Source of the DNA: Bacteroides sp. 224
GTDB taxonomy: Bacteria > Bacteroidota > Bacteroidia > Bacteroidales > Bacteroidaceae
Assembly (NCBI RefSeq): GCF_010500995.1
Contig: NZ_QVMK01000002.1
Coordinates: forward strand, 129,429-193,428
Reading direction: 5' to 3'
Length of the DNA: 64,000 nt
Shown here: in pieces, positions 12,484 through 60,160 of the stretch
Position numbering within the stretch: position 1 is the first letter of the stretch
Layout: each line of letters opens with the position of its first letter
The notes under the pieces: model-generated
Told to the model about the DNA's origin: nothing
Databases searched by the model: none
The model's input: only the letters and a program-made list of their open reading frames with translations
Translations under genes and position numbers: made by a program

Positions 12484-14811
12484 TTAATATTTACGGGTTG
12501 ATTCTCCATTCTCAAAAGTTATGCCATTACACAAAACGATTTCTATTCCCTTTCCGCACGGTCTTCCTCCCTCTCCTTGGGAGAGGGCCGGGGAGAGGCT
12601 TCGGGAGAGGCTTCGGGAGAGGGCCGGGGAGAGGCTTGCTTTTCCATTTTTCAATTTCGCTTCTATGATTCGATTCTTCGGTGCATGCAACTTAAACTCC
12701 ACGTCCCAATCCGAAGGCCATGCCGGGAAAAGATAAATGGTATCTCTGTTTGTTTGCAACAGCATTTCCTGCAATCCAATCATACCGCTTCCACCATGAT
12801 TATGGTCGGGTGTCCAATCGAAACCGGGTCCCCAAAAGGCAGGGAAGCGATGCAGACCATTACTTAGTTTAAGTAGAGCCAGACGAGCCGCTTCATCGGT
12901 CAATCCCAGGCAAGCCGCCCAGATGTTATCTTGCTTCCAACCAATATGCGACCGAAATTTCACAGCATCCGGATCGTACCAATAGGTATTCCGGGCTATT
13001 TCCAAACCATCCTTACCTATACCATACATCCGCCAAGGATACACCGGATAAAGTTGAGGTGTTTCCACATTGTTGATTCGTTCCCAGATTTTAGCGGGAG
13101 AAATCATCTCTTTACCATCTACTATTCTGAGTGGAATGGGGGGAATGGTTTTCAATAGTTCTTCTTTCCGACCGAATGTTTCGAGTACCGTTCGTAAGGC
13201 TGCAATGGTACTGGAAGCATTGTTGGTCATTTTATAGGTTTCGCAGGCAGAGCCGGGGAAAAGAATTAAGTGCCCGTCTCCATCCAGTTCTTTTCTTCCG
13301 CGTCGGCTTGCCCGATATCGGTAATGTTCATCAAAAAAGGTGAGGCAGCTTTCAATAAAAGGAATGTATTTGTTGATATCAGCTCCCTGATAGTTTTGTG
13401 TTTCCAGTATCATTTGGCAGAACTCCAATACCGTATCCCATTCGTATTCCAGCCAAGCGTTATATTCCAATCCTTTATCAAACCAGTCGGGACGCTTAAA
13501 TCCGTATTCCGCAGGATTGGGCAGACCAAAGTTTTCGAGTTGTTCGGCAAAGCAAGCACCTTTGTGCCCCCAATAAACTTCGGAACGTAATTCGGCACTA
13601 CCTAACATCCGATTGTAAAAGTCGAACTGGGCTGCCATCATATCCGTATCACCGCTTTTCAGCATTGGCCAATAAACCAGGCGTTGGTTCTGTGCCGTCA
13701 TGGTTCCCCCACCCCATTTCCGATAATCGGGGGTAAAGGCTTGTTTTTCATCTACATAACAGGGGTCGAAAGTAAACAGCCCCCCGTTAAATTTTGTGGG
13801 AACACTGCTGTATGCATTGCATCCCAACATATAACGGAAAAGGGTATAGTTACGGGTAATCTCTTCCGCCTCACCGGAGGCTTTAATATAGCTACGCTCC
13901 CAAAATGCATTCCACCAGGCACGAGACTGCTTCCGATCTTTGGCTACTTGTATATTTGCAATGGTTTTATTCAACCCTTCCTGCCACTGTTCCATTGTTT
14001 CTGTCTGCTCCGTATGCAAAGCAATACATATATGTTCTTTACGAACAGGTTTCTTGGTACGGAATACCCAAGCACAATAATCGGTACCTGCATAAGTACC
14101 TTCTTGGGTGCCCACATAAGATAAATGATCTCCCCAAAGCCGACCACCAAAAGTTAGATTAGCCAAAGGATTCATCATTCTTTCTTTAACATGCTCCAAC
14201 CCTTGTTGCTTTACTACTACGTCAAAAACTGTTTGTGCAGGATTGCGATGATAAAAAACAAGTTCATCATGAATGGTATATATAGAGTCTTTAGAGGTAT
14301 AACTATCTTTAGGAGGTGCCCACTTATAAGAATTCTGCTGCCCTTCTCCTTTTCGTATCGTTCTGTTCCGGTAACGCCAGTTTTCATAAAATACTTCGGC
14401 CGTAACAGGTTGCTTACTATTCATTTCCAAGTGAACAACCGGGCTAAACACGTATGCCCAGAGTTGGATGGTAGTTCCACCTGCTGCCACCGTTATATAA
14501 CCGTCGTTTAGTTTAAGCTCTTGGCGAAAGTTCGTTGTATTTTCAAAAGGGTTAGGTGATAGGCGCAGACGAATGCGTCCTTGTTTAAGCATACAATTAT
14601 GTTCATCGAAAGTGCCGCTTCGGCTCAGATAGAACAACAAGTCGCCATTCTCTACCCACACATTCATCCCAATGTCTCCGCCTCCGCAAGGCATAGACTC
14701 AGAAGAGTTCTGGCTGGGGGTATTCCAAACAAAAGAGGCATGTTGACTCCGAAGAGTCAACACGCTCGAAAACACCAACAATAGAATGATAAAAAAAATC
14801 TTTCTTTCCAT
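12484..14811 (-). CDS. Secreted DUF5703-type (alpha/alpha)6 protein, putative glycoside hydrolase
   Basis: This 775-residue protein has a signal peptide (FFIILLLVFSSVLTLRS). An N-terminal beta-sandwich begins FVWNTPSQNSSESMPCGGGDIGMNVWVENGD, a pattern I associate with DUF5703 and GH95-like enzymes. A helical barrel (about 300-680) contains NGGLFTFD, YWPMLKSGDTDMM, KGACFAEQLENFG and WTPDHNHGGSGMIGLQEMLLQ, and a small beta domain follows. Family members occur in pectin and RG-II loci, but the substrate cannot be read here. Residues around 735-762 (SLSPALSRSLSRSLSPALSQ) come from a palindromic element inserted into the C-terminal beta domain between KLKNGKA and IEIVLCNG; the frame is kept. The gene heads a minus-strand cluster with GH2 and the regulator. 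Confidence 0.75.
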   Translation of the reverse strand: MERKIFFIILLLVFSSVLTLRSQHASFVWNTPSQNSSESMPCGGGDIGMNVWVENGDLLFYLSRSGTFDEHNCMLKQGRIRLRLSPNPFENTTNFRQELKLNDGYITVAAGGTTIQLWAYVFSPVVHLEMNSKQPVTAEVFYENWRYRNRTIRKGEGQQNSYKWAPPKDSYTSKDSIYTIHDELVFYHRNPAQTVFDVVVKQQGLEHVKERMMNPLANLTFGGRLWGDHLSYVGTQEGTYAGTDYCAWVFRTKKPVRKEHICIALHTEQTETMEQWQEGLNKTIANIQVAKDRKQSRAWWNAFWERSYIKASGEAEEITRNYTLFRYMLGCNAYSSVPTKFNGGLFTFDPCYVDEKQAFTPDYRKWGGGTMTAQNQRLVYWPMLKSGDTDMMAAQFDFYNRMLGSAELRSEVYWGHKGACFAEQLENFGLPNPAEYGFKRPDWFDKGLEYNAWLEYEWDTVLEFCQMILETQNYQGADINKYIPFIESCLTFFDEHYRYRASRRGRKELDGDGHLILFPGSACETYKMTNNASSTIAALRTVLETFGRKEELLKTIPPIPLRIVDGKEMISPAKIWERINNVETPQLYPVYPWRMYGIGKDGLEIARNTYWYDPDAVKFRSHIGWKQDNIWAACLGLTDEAARLALLKLSNGLHRFPAFWGPGFDWTPDHNHGGSGMIGLQEMLLQTNRDTIYLFPAWPSDWDVEFKLHAPKNRIIEAKLKNGKASLSPALSRSLSRSLSPALSQGEGGRPCGKGIEIVLCNGITFENGESTRKY
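12554..12637. repeat. Palindromic REP-like element inside the DUF5703-type gene (copy B)
   Basis: Positions 12554-12601 are the exact reverse complement of 12363-12410. They are followed by extra partial units with GGGAGAGGCTTC repeated, ending near 12637. The element sits in the last 60 codons of the gene and is read through in frame. Confidence 0.9.
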
Positions 14812-14954
14812 AAAGAAAGAGACGAAAATAATCGCGATTTGTACTCAATAAGATTAGTCTATATCATTCTTAGGTTCTTGCCAAGGCTTTTTCGATGGGT
14901 ATAATTAATTCAAGCGGCAAAAGATTTCTGTTCAGATTGATTTTATTGATCAAA

Positions 14955-15058
14955 AAGTGTCACAAGTGTCACAAATCGTTTTAATGAGTTGATTTACAGA
15001 GTTGAATAGTGGGTGATACTTTTCTAAAAAACATCACGGAAGTGTCACAAGTGTCACA
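14955..15058. repeat. Pair of 19-bp direct repeats (GTGTCACAA units)
   Basis: The sequence AAGTGTCACAAGTGTCACA occurs exactly at 14955-14973 and again at 15040-15058, 85 bases apart. Each copy is itself two GTGTCACA half-units in tandem, like a bipartite protein-binding site. It lies in the 632-base gap between two divergently transcribed genes. Confidence 0.85.
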
Positions 15059-15112
15059 CTTGATAAATGGTGTTTTGTTCCAAATTTTGATGCGGTTTTA
15101 AACATCTTTCCC

Positions 15113-15191
15113 CACCCGGGTGTAGACGCCTTCTCCACCTGGGTGTAAGCGGTTTGTACATCCGGGTGGAGCAGGGTTCTACATCCGGGTG
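15113..15191. promoter_or_regulatory. Four CAYCYGGGTG palindromes at an exact 23-bp period
   Basis: CACCCGGGTG, CACCTGGGTG, CATCCGGGTG and CATCCGGGTG begin at 15113, 15136, 15159 and 15182, each 23 bases after the last. Flanks partly extend the palindrome (TACAYCCGGGTGTA). The array lies in the gap between the DUF5703-type gene and the kinase-like gene. A related three-copy array with the same period is at 60053-60114. The motif resembles an operator array; the binding protein is unknown. Confidence 0.8.
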
Positions 15192-15358
15192 TGGAAAGAA
15201 ATTTCAAAGTGATTTATCCCGTTTCTTTCTATTGCCGAGAGCATTTATGCCTCAATAAAAGTTTTTTCGACACACCTTCCCCCCCAAAAAAAAACCACCA
15301 AAACAATTGTTCTTTCATTCCTATTTATTCTTTTTATTGAAAAGAAGAAAAGATTCAT

Positions 15359-59544: not shown

Positions 59545-59988
59545 TCACTCTTCCTGTTCTTCTTTTTCCCAATATTCTTTGGGCAAATAATCTTTAAATG
59601 GCACTTTGAAATATCCGCTCTCCCGTATTCTACCTGCCATCTTACGATTCGCCATAAAATACACACGCGATAGCTTTACTTCTTCGGGAGTTACCTGAGA
59701 CGGATGTTCAAAGCCATTGCTGGTAAGTGCCGTTTTAAACGTACCCAGTTTTTTAAGGTTTACAGTAAAGCCATAACTCAGAAAGAATTCAAGTGCTTCG
59801 GCTATTTCAGTCAAAATTCCTTCTATTACACCGGGACTAAAGCCTGTTCTTTGGGATATGCGTCTCACAAATTCTTCGTCCGTAATTCCGCCTCTTTCTT
59901 GCATGGTTTTTGCTATGGCATACCACAATTCTTTGTCTTCGCCACCTGTTCTATCCAGTTTCTTTCGTACCACATAAGGAATTGCCAT
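59545..59988 (-). CDS. HU-like DNA-binding protein (Bacteroidota HU-related type)
   Basis: This 147-residue protein begins MAIPYVVRKKLDRTGGEDK, the usual start of the HU-related family of Bacteroidota. An HU/IHF-like core follows (TDEEFVRRISQRTGFSPGVIEGILTEIAEALEFFLSYGFTVNLKKLGTF in segments), and an acidic tail closes it (YLPKEYWEKEEQEE). It probably bends or coats DNA. Its leader contains three palindromic operator-like sites at 60053-60114. It sits between the EEP gene and the SusD gene; HU-like genes are often found near surface-polysaccharide and PUL genes in Bacteroides. Confidence 0.85.
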   Translation of the reverse strand: MAIPYVVRKKLDRTGGEDKELWYAIAKTMQERGGITDEEFVRRISQRTGFSPGVIEGILTEIAEALEFFLSYGFTVNLKKLGTFKTALTSNGFEHPSQVTPEEVKLSRVYFMANRKMAGRIRESGYFKVPFKDYLPKEYWEKEEQEE

Positions 59989-60052: not shown

Positions 60053-60114
60053 TTAGACCCGGGTCTAATTCGTTTTTTAATCCGGGTTTAACGCAGTGTT
60101 AGATCTGGGTCTAA
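60053..60114. promoter_or_regulatory. Three CCGGGT palindromes at a 23-bp period in the HU-like gene leader
   Basis: TTAGACCCGGGTCTAA (60053-60068) is a perfect 16-bp palindrome. TTAATCCGGGTTTAA and TTAGATCTGGGTCTAA follow with their YCYGGG cores at 60058, 60081 and 60104, each 23 bases apart. The array lies between the probable promoter and the HU-like start codon. A related four-copy array is at 15113-15191. Confidence 0.85.
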
Positions 60115-60129
60115 GACATATTACTTTGG

Positions 60130-60160
60130 CAAAGATACATTTATATATTAAGCAAAGCAA
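60130..60160 (-). promoter_or_regulatory. Probable promoter of the HU-like gene
   Basis: TATCTTTG at 60137-60130 matches the minus-7 consensus on the minus strand. TTGC at 60160-60157, 19 bases upstream, is a weak minus-33. Transcription would start near 60123, putting the palindrome array in the first 70 bases of the transcript and giving a leader of about 135 bases. Confidence 0.5.

Follow-up and report, generated by a model that had tools for sequence, protein, structure and literature searches.

HU is a textbook DNA packer that binds with little sequence preference, and the sites of IHF are asymmetric and single; both proteins bind DNA as dimers. Sites of a helix-turn-helix repressor that form a row of palindromes near a promoter, spaced by 23–24 bp, are found in operators of the lambda OR type. 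Scattered short symmetric sites tied to one protein are found in the REP/RAYT and matS/MatP systems.

According to the accessible parts of its description, BrickBuilt of P. gingivalis is an intergenic MITE with a 23-nt tandem repeat, occupies 19 places in ATCC 33277, and has terminal inverted repeats like those of IS5-family elements (PMC4596501). Its copy BrickBuilt_5 contains 18 full repeats, and a table of the same source places BrickBuilt_14 beside a gene for a DNA-binding protein of PF00216 (PMC4596501). Computed on the published consensus, the BrickBuilt unit contains a 12-bp palindrome. BrickBuilt and the arrays described below share a 23-bp period and an intergenic location; a link to HU-HIG is unstated in the accessible parts of that source (PMC4596501), and such a link is suggestive only, by analogy. 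The study of the P. gingivalis HU protein PG0121, as far as its text is accessible, concerns a 77-bp inverted repeat (PMC3969353).

The locus described here carries a gene of the HU-HIG/HU_rel family (PF18291, TIGR01201), to which its protein belongs by both profiles and by predicted fold. The protein shares the HU fold with IHF and classical HU. Its candidate sites are unlike those of IHF and HU, namely tandem two-fold palindromes with a fixed period and a paralog-specific word. They differ from lambda OR-type operators in the protein family, in the copy number of 3–5 and in having scattered gene-less copies, and from REP/RAYT and matS/MatP in having several private words per genome and an HU-fold protein. 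In the open full-text literature, whose silence does not establish absence from print, we found no description of operators, words or scattered arrays for HU-HIG proteins, nor of the wider pattern of rows before their genes.

The palindrome row and its HU-HIG gene

In the window, namely the whole stretch of 64,000 nucleotides analysed, the leader of an HU-HIG gene on the minus strand contains three palindromes that repeat every 23 bp exactly (Table 1). On re-reading of the coordinates, the core hexamers start at 60058, 60081 and 60104, just as the preliminary description had put it. With any common period of 15–40 bp allowed, this is the sole row of three palindromes in the 64 kb with at least 20 of 24 pairs in total and at least 5 per copy, and 20 dinucleotide-shuffled windows contained no row at the same thresholds. 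In the gene sense, the array lies between the TATCTTTG box and the start codon, 15 nt behind the end of the box as measured by eye. This agrees with the position just behind a probable promoter that had been described earlier, and the distance is a set one in Bacteroides leaders (see below).

Table 1. Positions within the window of the features discussed in the text
Feature	Position	Strand	Details
Palindrome copy 1	60053..60068	.	TTAGACCCGGGTCTAA, 8/8 pairs
Palindrome copy 2	60076..60091	.	TTTAATCCGGGTTTAA, 6/8 pairs, 23 bp from copy 1
Palindrome copy 3	60099..60114	.	TTAGATCTGGGTCTAA, 6/8 pairs, 23 bp from copy 2
Probable promoter -7 box	60130..60137	-	TATCTTTG, TAnnTTTG type, by eye
HU-HIG protein gene	59545..59988	-	147 aa; PF18291 E 4e-19, TIGR01201, fold model
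Left block of CTCC element	14931..15056	+	AAGTGTCAC repeats; one of 16 genome copies
Second, gene-less array	15110..15194	.	4 copies, 23 bp, CTCC-type

The gene had been described as HU-like, and the profiles place it in the HU-HIG family. Specifically, the protein scores 69.3 bits against a curated cut-off of 26.2 for PF18291 and 78.8 against 68.6 for TIGR01201 (HU_rel). Its structural model (pLDDT 92.5) predicts an HU fold with an extra N-terminal beta-hairpin. HU/IHF-like structures head the fold-match lists, and the core of the model aligns with HU and IHF chains. The matches include 6n2l (Z 9.9, 88 aligned, 4.3 Å), 4fmr_B (BVU_2165 of Bacteroides vulgatus; Z 9.5, 128 aligned, 4.8 Å), which spans model residues 1–147, and HU 6o8q (Z 9.3, 75 aligned, 1.6 Å). 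The gene is not widespread, since the protein is matched (E ≤ 1e-8) in only 10 of 151 genomes of the family. A plasmid collection and a phage collection gave four and two weak-to-moderate matches, respectively. Three of their leaders were examined, of which L322 has a clear row, L323 a likely 22-bp row and L324 none; the L323 leader, before an HU-family gene of B. finegoldii, carries a different, TCACCTTGCAAGGTGA-like word.

The same assembly contains 29 HU-HIG or HU matches at E ≤ 1, 26 of them at E ≤ 1e-6; five of the 29 (L063–L067: classical HU, fragments and broken frames) were left unscored. Seven short genes belong to the clade of the window gene, which is marked by YVVR or YVIR near the N-terminus, and have leaders that contain rows of three or four palindromes with a period of 23 bp in all. 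The inner part of the palindrome, ACCCGGGT, is common to the seven leaders, and the outer letters differ. By eye, the outer words fall into the classes TTAG (window gene), GTAC (L043 and L046), CTCC (L048), AAAC (L053 and L054) and CGAC (L058). Rows of different words precede two longer paralogs, as judged by score for L039 and by eye for L040, and none of the 12 scored genes whose protein ends in IDPSA has a row at the 1-in-100 level.

Rows before HU-HIG genes of other genomes

In the family search, which covered 60 genomes of the order, the list includes 62 foreign HU-HIG matches that score more than 50 bits; 60 of these were retrieved. Together with 24 from the own genome they gave a first set of 84 leaders, of which two were dropped (short leader or N) and 82 scored. 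Summed over three palindromes, 20 or more of the 24 pairs were formed in 13 of the 82 leaders and in 0 of 984 shuffles, and 19 or more in 19 leaders and 3 shuffles. All of the latter 19 leaders have a period of 21, 22 or 23 bp, though periods of 17–31 bp were searched. One of the 33 window leaders used as controls also reached 19, with a period of 29. Chance is frequent at the lower score of 17, which was reached by 80 of the 984 shuffles and 6 of the 33 window control leaders.

Named Bacteroides and other loci brought the set to 137 leaders (135 scored, 132 distinct). The three-copy array was unequalled in 100 shuffles in 60 of the 132 distinct leaders, with a period of 23 bp in 34, 22 bp in 19 and 21 bp in 7, and at most one of 100 shuffles was as good in 69. 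About half of the HU-HIG leaders are rowless, 65 of the 135 lying above the 1-in-100 shuffle level. Three leaders with arrays by score (L042, L179 and L189) are doubtful and were kept out of the RNA, promoter-box and tree tests. The words are very diverse and include GCTGTCAGCTGACAGC, TGGTACGATCGTACCA, TTTGATGTACATCAAA, AAACCCTCGAGGGTTT, CGAACTACGTAGTTCG and AATCATGTACGATGATT.

Between orthologs, the layout and the period are kept and the exact outer word is not. Specifically, 23-bp rows precede five close relatives of the window gene, namely L083 (51% identical), L084 (B. reticulotermitis, 49%), L085 (B. faecalis, 47%), L322 (B. finegoldii, 47%, a clear row) and L276 (from G238), and their outer letters are mostly CGAC, TGAC or similar, not TTAG. 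Within the clade of the window gene, a row passes the 1-in-100 level in 28 of 32 distinct leaders, and its period is 23 bp in every one. As for the remaining clade leaders, L092 is cut by a contig end, spaced ACCCGGGT-like sites are visible by eye in L068 (the locus of L088), and the script accepted no row in L089 or L093. Two outcomes had been named in the preliminary description as speaking against it, a row or spacing absent before orthologs and no excess over shuffled DNA. Neither was observed: the 23-bp row is found in 5 of 5 close relatives and 28 of 32 clade loci, and in 0 of the 20 shuffled windows.

Individual leaders show further variation. The leader of L102 (Bacteroides sp. 51) is of the same clade and period and has a CTAGG-like core (CCCGATCTAGGTCGGG), not CCCGGG, which makes it a useful natural variant for specificity work. 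L284 of G230 has a CTTTTAA-type word at 22 bp. In G175, the L188 leader carries a word close to TCTCACATATGTGAGA that resembles the palindrome in the P. gingivalis BrickBuilt unit, TCTCATATGAGA, and in G002 the L189 leader consists of tandem 23-bp units, ATCGGCAAGGCGATGGCTCCGTC and variants, a longer minisatellite with a period like that of BrickBuilt. L322 of B. finegoldii adjoins a gene annotated as gyrase/topoisomerase IV subunit A, and a gene-less CGAC array of G222 (L311) precedes an ORF that resembles gyrase A by eye.

The rows lie at a set distance from a promoter box in Bacteroides leaders. An exact TAnnTTTG, which we take to be the Bacteroidota -7 box consensus, precedes the row by 0–45 nt in 33 of 57 distinct array leaders, compared with 26 of 1140 background draws. 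The distance from box to array is exactly 18 nt in 14 leaders, the commonest value in Bacteroides leaders; thus, in the Bacteroides cases, the row starts shortly behind the transcription start. Such a position would suit a repressor that acts as a roadblock or prevents promoter escape. No exact TAnnTTTG is present in the tested span of the other 24 leaders, which include all 16 from G002, G168, G174, G175, G185 and G200; 33 of the 41 others have the box. G002 belongs to the genus of the window, so presence or absence of the box is not a clean Bacteroides split. The window leader is not among the 33, because the script placed a fourth palindrome over its promoter box.

The period goes with the protein. 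On a tree of the proteins built with FastTree, it changes 5 times over 67 array-bearing proteins, compared with a shuffled mean of 25.7. Since the full set still includes close relatives, the tree was also thinned to 81 proteins, 37 of them with arrays; there the period again changes 5 times, compared with 13.6, and 0 of 500 shuffles were as low. Whether a row is present changes 21 times over the protein tree, compared with 43.1 when shuffled. Words have diverged within clades of constant period. Spacing tied to clades would be expected if the protein sets the pitch, and shared descent of leader and gene contributes.

Gene-less arrays and the CTCC element

The palindromes also occur in arrays without an HU-HIG gene. 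In the own genome, the spaced core RYCCGGRY-N15-RYCCGGRY with up to two mismatches gave 167 matches per strand, compared with 13 for a reversed control, and with up to one mismatch 92, compared with 0. At up to one mismatch, 54 of 60 genus genomes (own included) have at least one match, and the richest have 49, 47 and 46, compared with 0 for the control. The figure of 54 overstates the number of array-bearing genomes, since the weak genomes are near control level (9 vs 7, 7 vs 4, 6 vs 4 and 0 vs 1 for spaced core and control) and the one-mismatch matches listed for G217, G248 and G250, like most of those for G239, stand as lone pairs and form no row. The search itself partly imposes the 23-bp spacing on the arrays recovered, and a search with the left block, described below, is the unbiased check.

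Twenty array loci from the first 100 matches listed and the window's gene-less array make up an own-genome sample of 21. By eye, 11 are CTCC, 4 GTAC, 4 AAAC, 1 CGAC and 1 (L230) unclear. Words match within the genome: in 20 of the 21, judged by eye on the outer letters, the word also precedes a resident HU-HIG gene. The window's second array has the word of the paralog L048, unlike the window's own HU-HIG gene. The TTAG word of the window gene has just one further array in the genome, at C46:21783-21844; single TTAG sites are uninformative, with 32 per strand for the pattern and 73 per strand for its reversed control. The neighbours of the 21 arrays are convergent in 7, divergent in 7 and tandem in 7 by a crude ORF call. 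This absence of promoter bias makes a simple promoter regulon unlikely. Two gene-less arrays overlap short ORFs (81 and 96 aa).

From G238, G230, G222 and G209, arrays without mismatch were retrieved (for G222, among the matches listed), and 30 of the 61 HU-HIG matches in these four genomes were examined. G238 has one clade gene among the 8 of 19 matches examined, the best-scoring L276, with a CGAC-type row, and its three other retrieved arrays are also CGAC-type. G222 has CGAC-type and AACAT-type genes and, among the matches listed, one gene-less array of each. In G230, an AAACAT gene is accompanied by three AAACAT arrays. The single array from G209 is a two-copy TGAC one, and no clade gene is among the 8 of 22 matches examined there. 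Thus, by eye on the outer letters, the gene-less array matches a resident gene in 8 of 8 cases in G238, G222 and G230 and in 0 of 1 in G209, that is, in 8 of 9. The word of the G175 gene L201, CGAACTACGTAGTTCG, when used for searching, gave three more rows whose expected side lacks an HU-HIG gene. At L023:660-767, five palindromes with a 23-bp period carry the words TTAAGTGTACACTTAA and AAAGGTATATACCTAA; the 3-kb locus contains no HU-HIG gene and the word is absent from the scored resident HU-HIG leaders, which makes it an orphan array.

The CTCC arrays are part of an element of ~275 bp, with a kept left block of AAGTGTCAC direct and inverted repeats. In the window, the element (14931-15194) lies between a minus-strand gene at 12484-14811 and a plus-strand gene at about 15444. 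Searched alone with spacing ignored, the 127-bp left block gave 16 copies over at least 124 of 127 bases, one before the HU-HIG gene L048 and 15 gene-less; the gene-less ones are 77–100% identical to the query. Four of the CTCC copies recovered by this search were retrieved in addition to the own-genome sample. All 16 are followed by a 23-bp row, of four palindromes in 15 and three in one. The AAAC arrays and three of the four GTAC arrays likewise have left parts in common with the leaders of their HU-HIG genes; the fourth GTAC array, L226, has a different left part. These shared AAAC and GTAC left blocks have the layout of the CTCC block with other words. The direct and inverted repeats of the left blocks, upstream in L225, L053 and L046, are family-specific (AAGTGTCAC; CCTAACGCACC; AAGTCCCACC or AAGTTCCACC), which would suit private sites of a second factor as well.

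The scattered copies are constrained in the palindromes. In 14 of the 16 left-block copies (all except L315, which has three palindromes, and the gene copy L048), identity is 80–91% in the palindromes, 42–55% in the linkers and 28% in the right flank. The gap between left block and array varies from 11 to 96 bp, and the pitch of the row stays at 23 bp. The gene-less copies thus keep palindromes and pitch and little else on that side, as sites of a protein would. At the locus of the second window array, 22 of 158 genus genomes match (E ≤ 1e-30); the foreign matches are partial, 68–78% identical, and none extends over the array.

Operator, mobile element and other candidate explanations

We propose that the three palindromes are probably a cooperative operator for the protein of the adjoining HU-HIG gene. 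A homodimer of the HU-HIG protein would read one palindrome of ~16 bp, and neighbouring dimers, held 23 bp apart, would fill the row jointly. A leader row ~10 bp behind the inferred transcription start would block promoter escape, and blocked escape would cap the protein's own level. Several other HU-HIG clades would use the same layout with their own word and a period of 21 or 22 bp, and the same word in intergenic gene-less arrays would give each protein private chromosomal sites beyond its own promoter. From sequence, we infer that the HU-HIG protein is the binder, that its binding represses and that the scattered sites have a role; anchoring, bridging and a part in the element's own spread would all be possible for them.

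Symmetric sites near the gene's own promoter that are kept in relatives, as in an autoregulatory operator, are present here, with outer letters that vary. Putative autoregulation by the HU-like protein, as suggested in the preliminary description, is well supported by comparison, namely by the conserved rows, by a period and word that go with the protein, and by the promoter distance. The description of the row as an operator of this one gene holds in that the row is real and kept. It does not hold as a one-off, since rows of other words precede other HU-HIG clades and scattered arrays exist. The finding is thus larger than first described, with a layout common to several HU-HIG clades, private words and scattered arrays that would be cognate to them. 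Against the operator, HU proteins usually bind with little sequence preference, and common descent of gene and leader could by itself make word and period track the protein. The rowless half of the leaders, the 24 of 57 leaders without a box and the lack of promoter bias of the scattered arrays also count against it.

It is possible, though short of probable, that the arrays belong to a repetitive MITE-like element and that the palindromes serve its mobility rather than regulation. HU-HIG leaders would then be one home of the element, and the scattered copies gene-less descendants moved in trans, as in REP and BrickBuilt. Scattered similar gene-less copies, as in a MITE, are seen in 15 of the 16 CTCC left blocks, and the left parts that the AAAC and three of the four GTAC arrays share with HU-HIG leaders, together with the gene-less arrays' indifference to promoters, point the same way. 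BrickBuilt provides a precedent in the form of a MITE with a 23-nt tandem repeat (PMC4596501, accessible parts) and a palindromic consensus. However, no consistent target-site duplication was found in 11 copies, in which the element ends are inexact, and the set distance to the promoter box, the clade-specific period and the conservation of palindromes beyond linkers and flank fit protein sites. The mobile element and the operator overlap, and both may hold.

A different DNA-binding protein that occupies the arrays and controls HU-HIG genes and other sites is unlikely. In its favour, palindromes of 16 bp repeated every 23 bp would also fit helix-turn-helix repressors, as at lambda OR, which has such a spacing. 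However, the words differ among paralogs of one genome and the period follows the HU-HIG tree; with words and period both following the paralogs, a second factor would need equally many private versions. The leaders compared here were chosen because they lie upstream of HU-HIG genes, and other genes are sampled by the 33 window leaders and the scattered arrays.

The palindromes lie within the probable transcribed leader and can fold, and they might therefore work as RNA hairpins, which we consider very improbable. An RNA hairpin would tolerate G-U and not A-C. In the 57 leaders read in mRNA sense, the non-Watson-Crick pairs are G-T in 76 cases and A-C in 73 (p 0.87), and 11 scattered copies have 29 G-T and 20 A-C deviations. 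The absence of a G-U bias indicates that the sites act as DNA. Rfam gave no family at gathering score in the 64-kb window, and no copy-to-copy pairing stands out; a candidate long leader hairpin was dropped, because copies 1-4 and 2-3 show no pairing advantage over other combinations of copies. Accidental palindromes, favoured by their short length and nothing else, are refuted by the shuffles of leaders and window and by the excess of the spaced core (167 matches) over its reversed control (13).

Extending the cooperative operator to the family, we tentatively suggest that many HU-HIG proteins could be sequence-specific, mutually orthogonal HU proteins. Their private palindromes, in rows of 3–5 at a clade-specific pitch of 21, 22 or 23 bp, would control their own genes, and the proteins would decorate or bridge matching scattered arrays that spread as a gene-less repeat, with several such systems per Bacteroides chromosome. 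For dozens of HU-like genes, the genome seems to give a private, readable address beside the gene. Such addresses would provide ready protein–site pairs from which sequence reading by an HU fold could be studied, as well as potentially orthogonal regulators. They would also give access to the numerous HU-like paralogs of gut Bacteroidales, and might explain a class of intergenic repeats scattered over these genomes.
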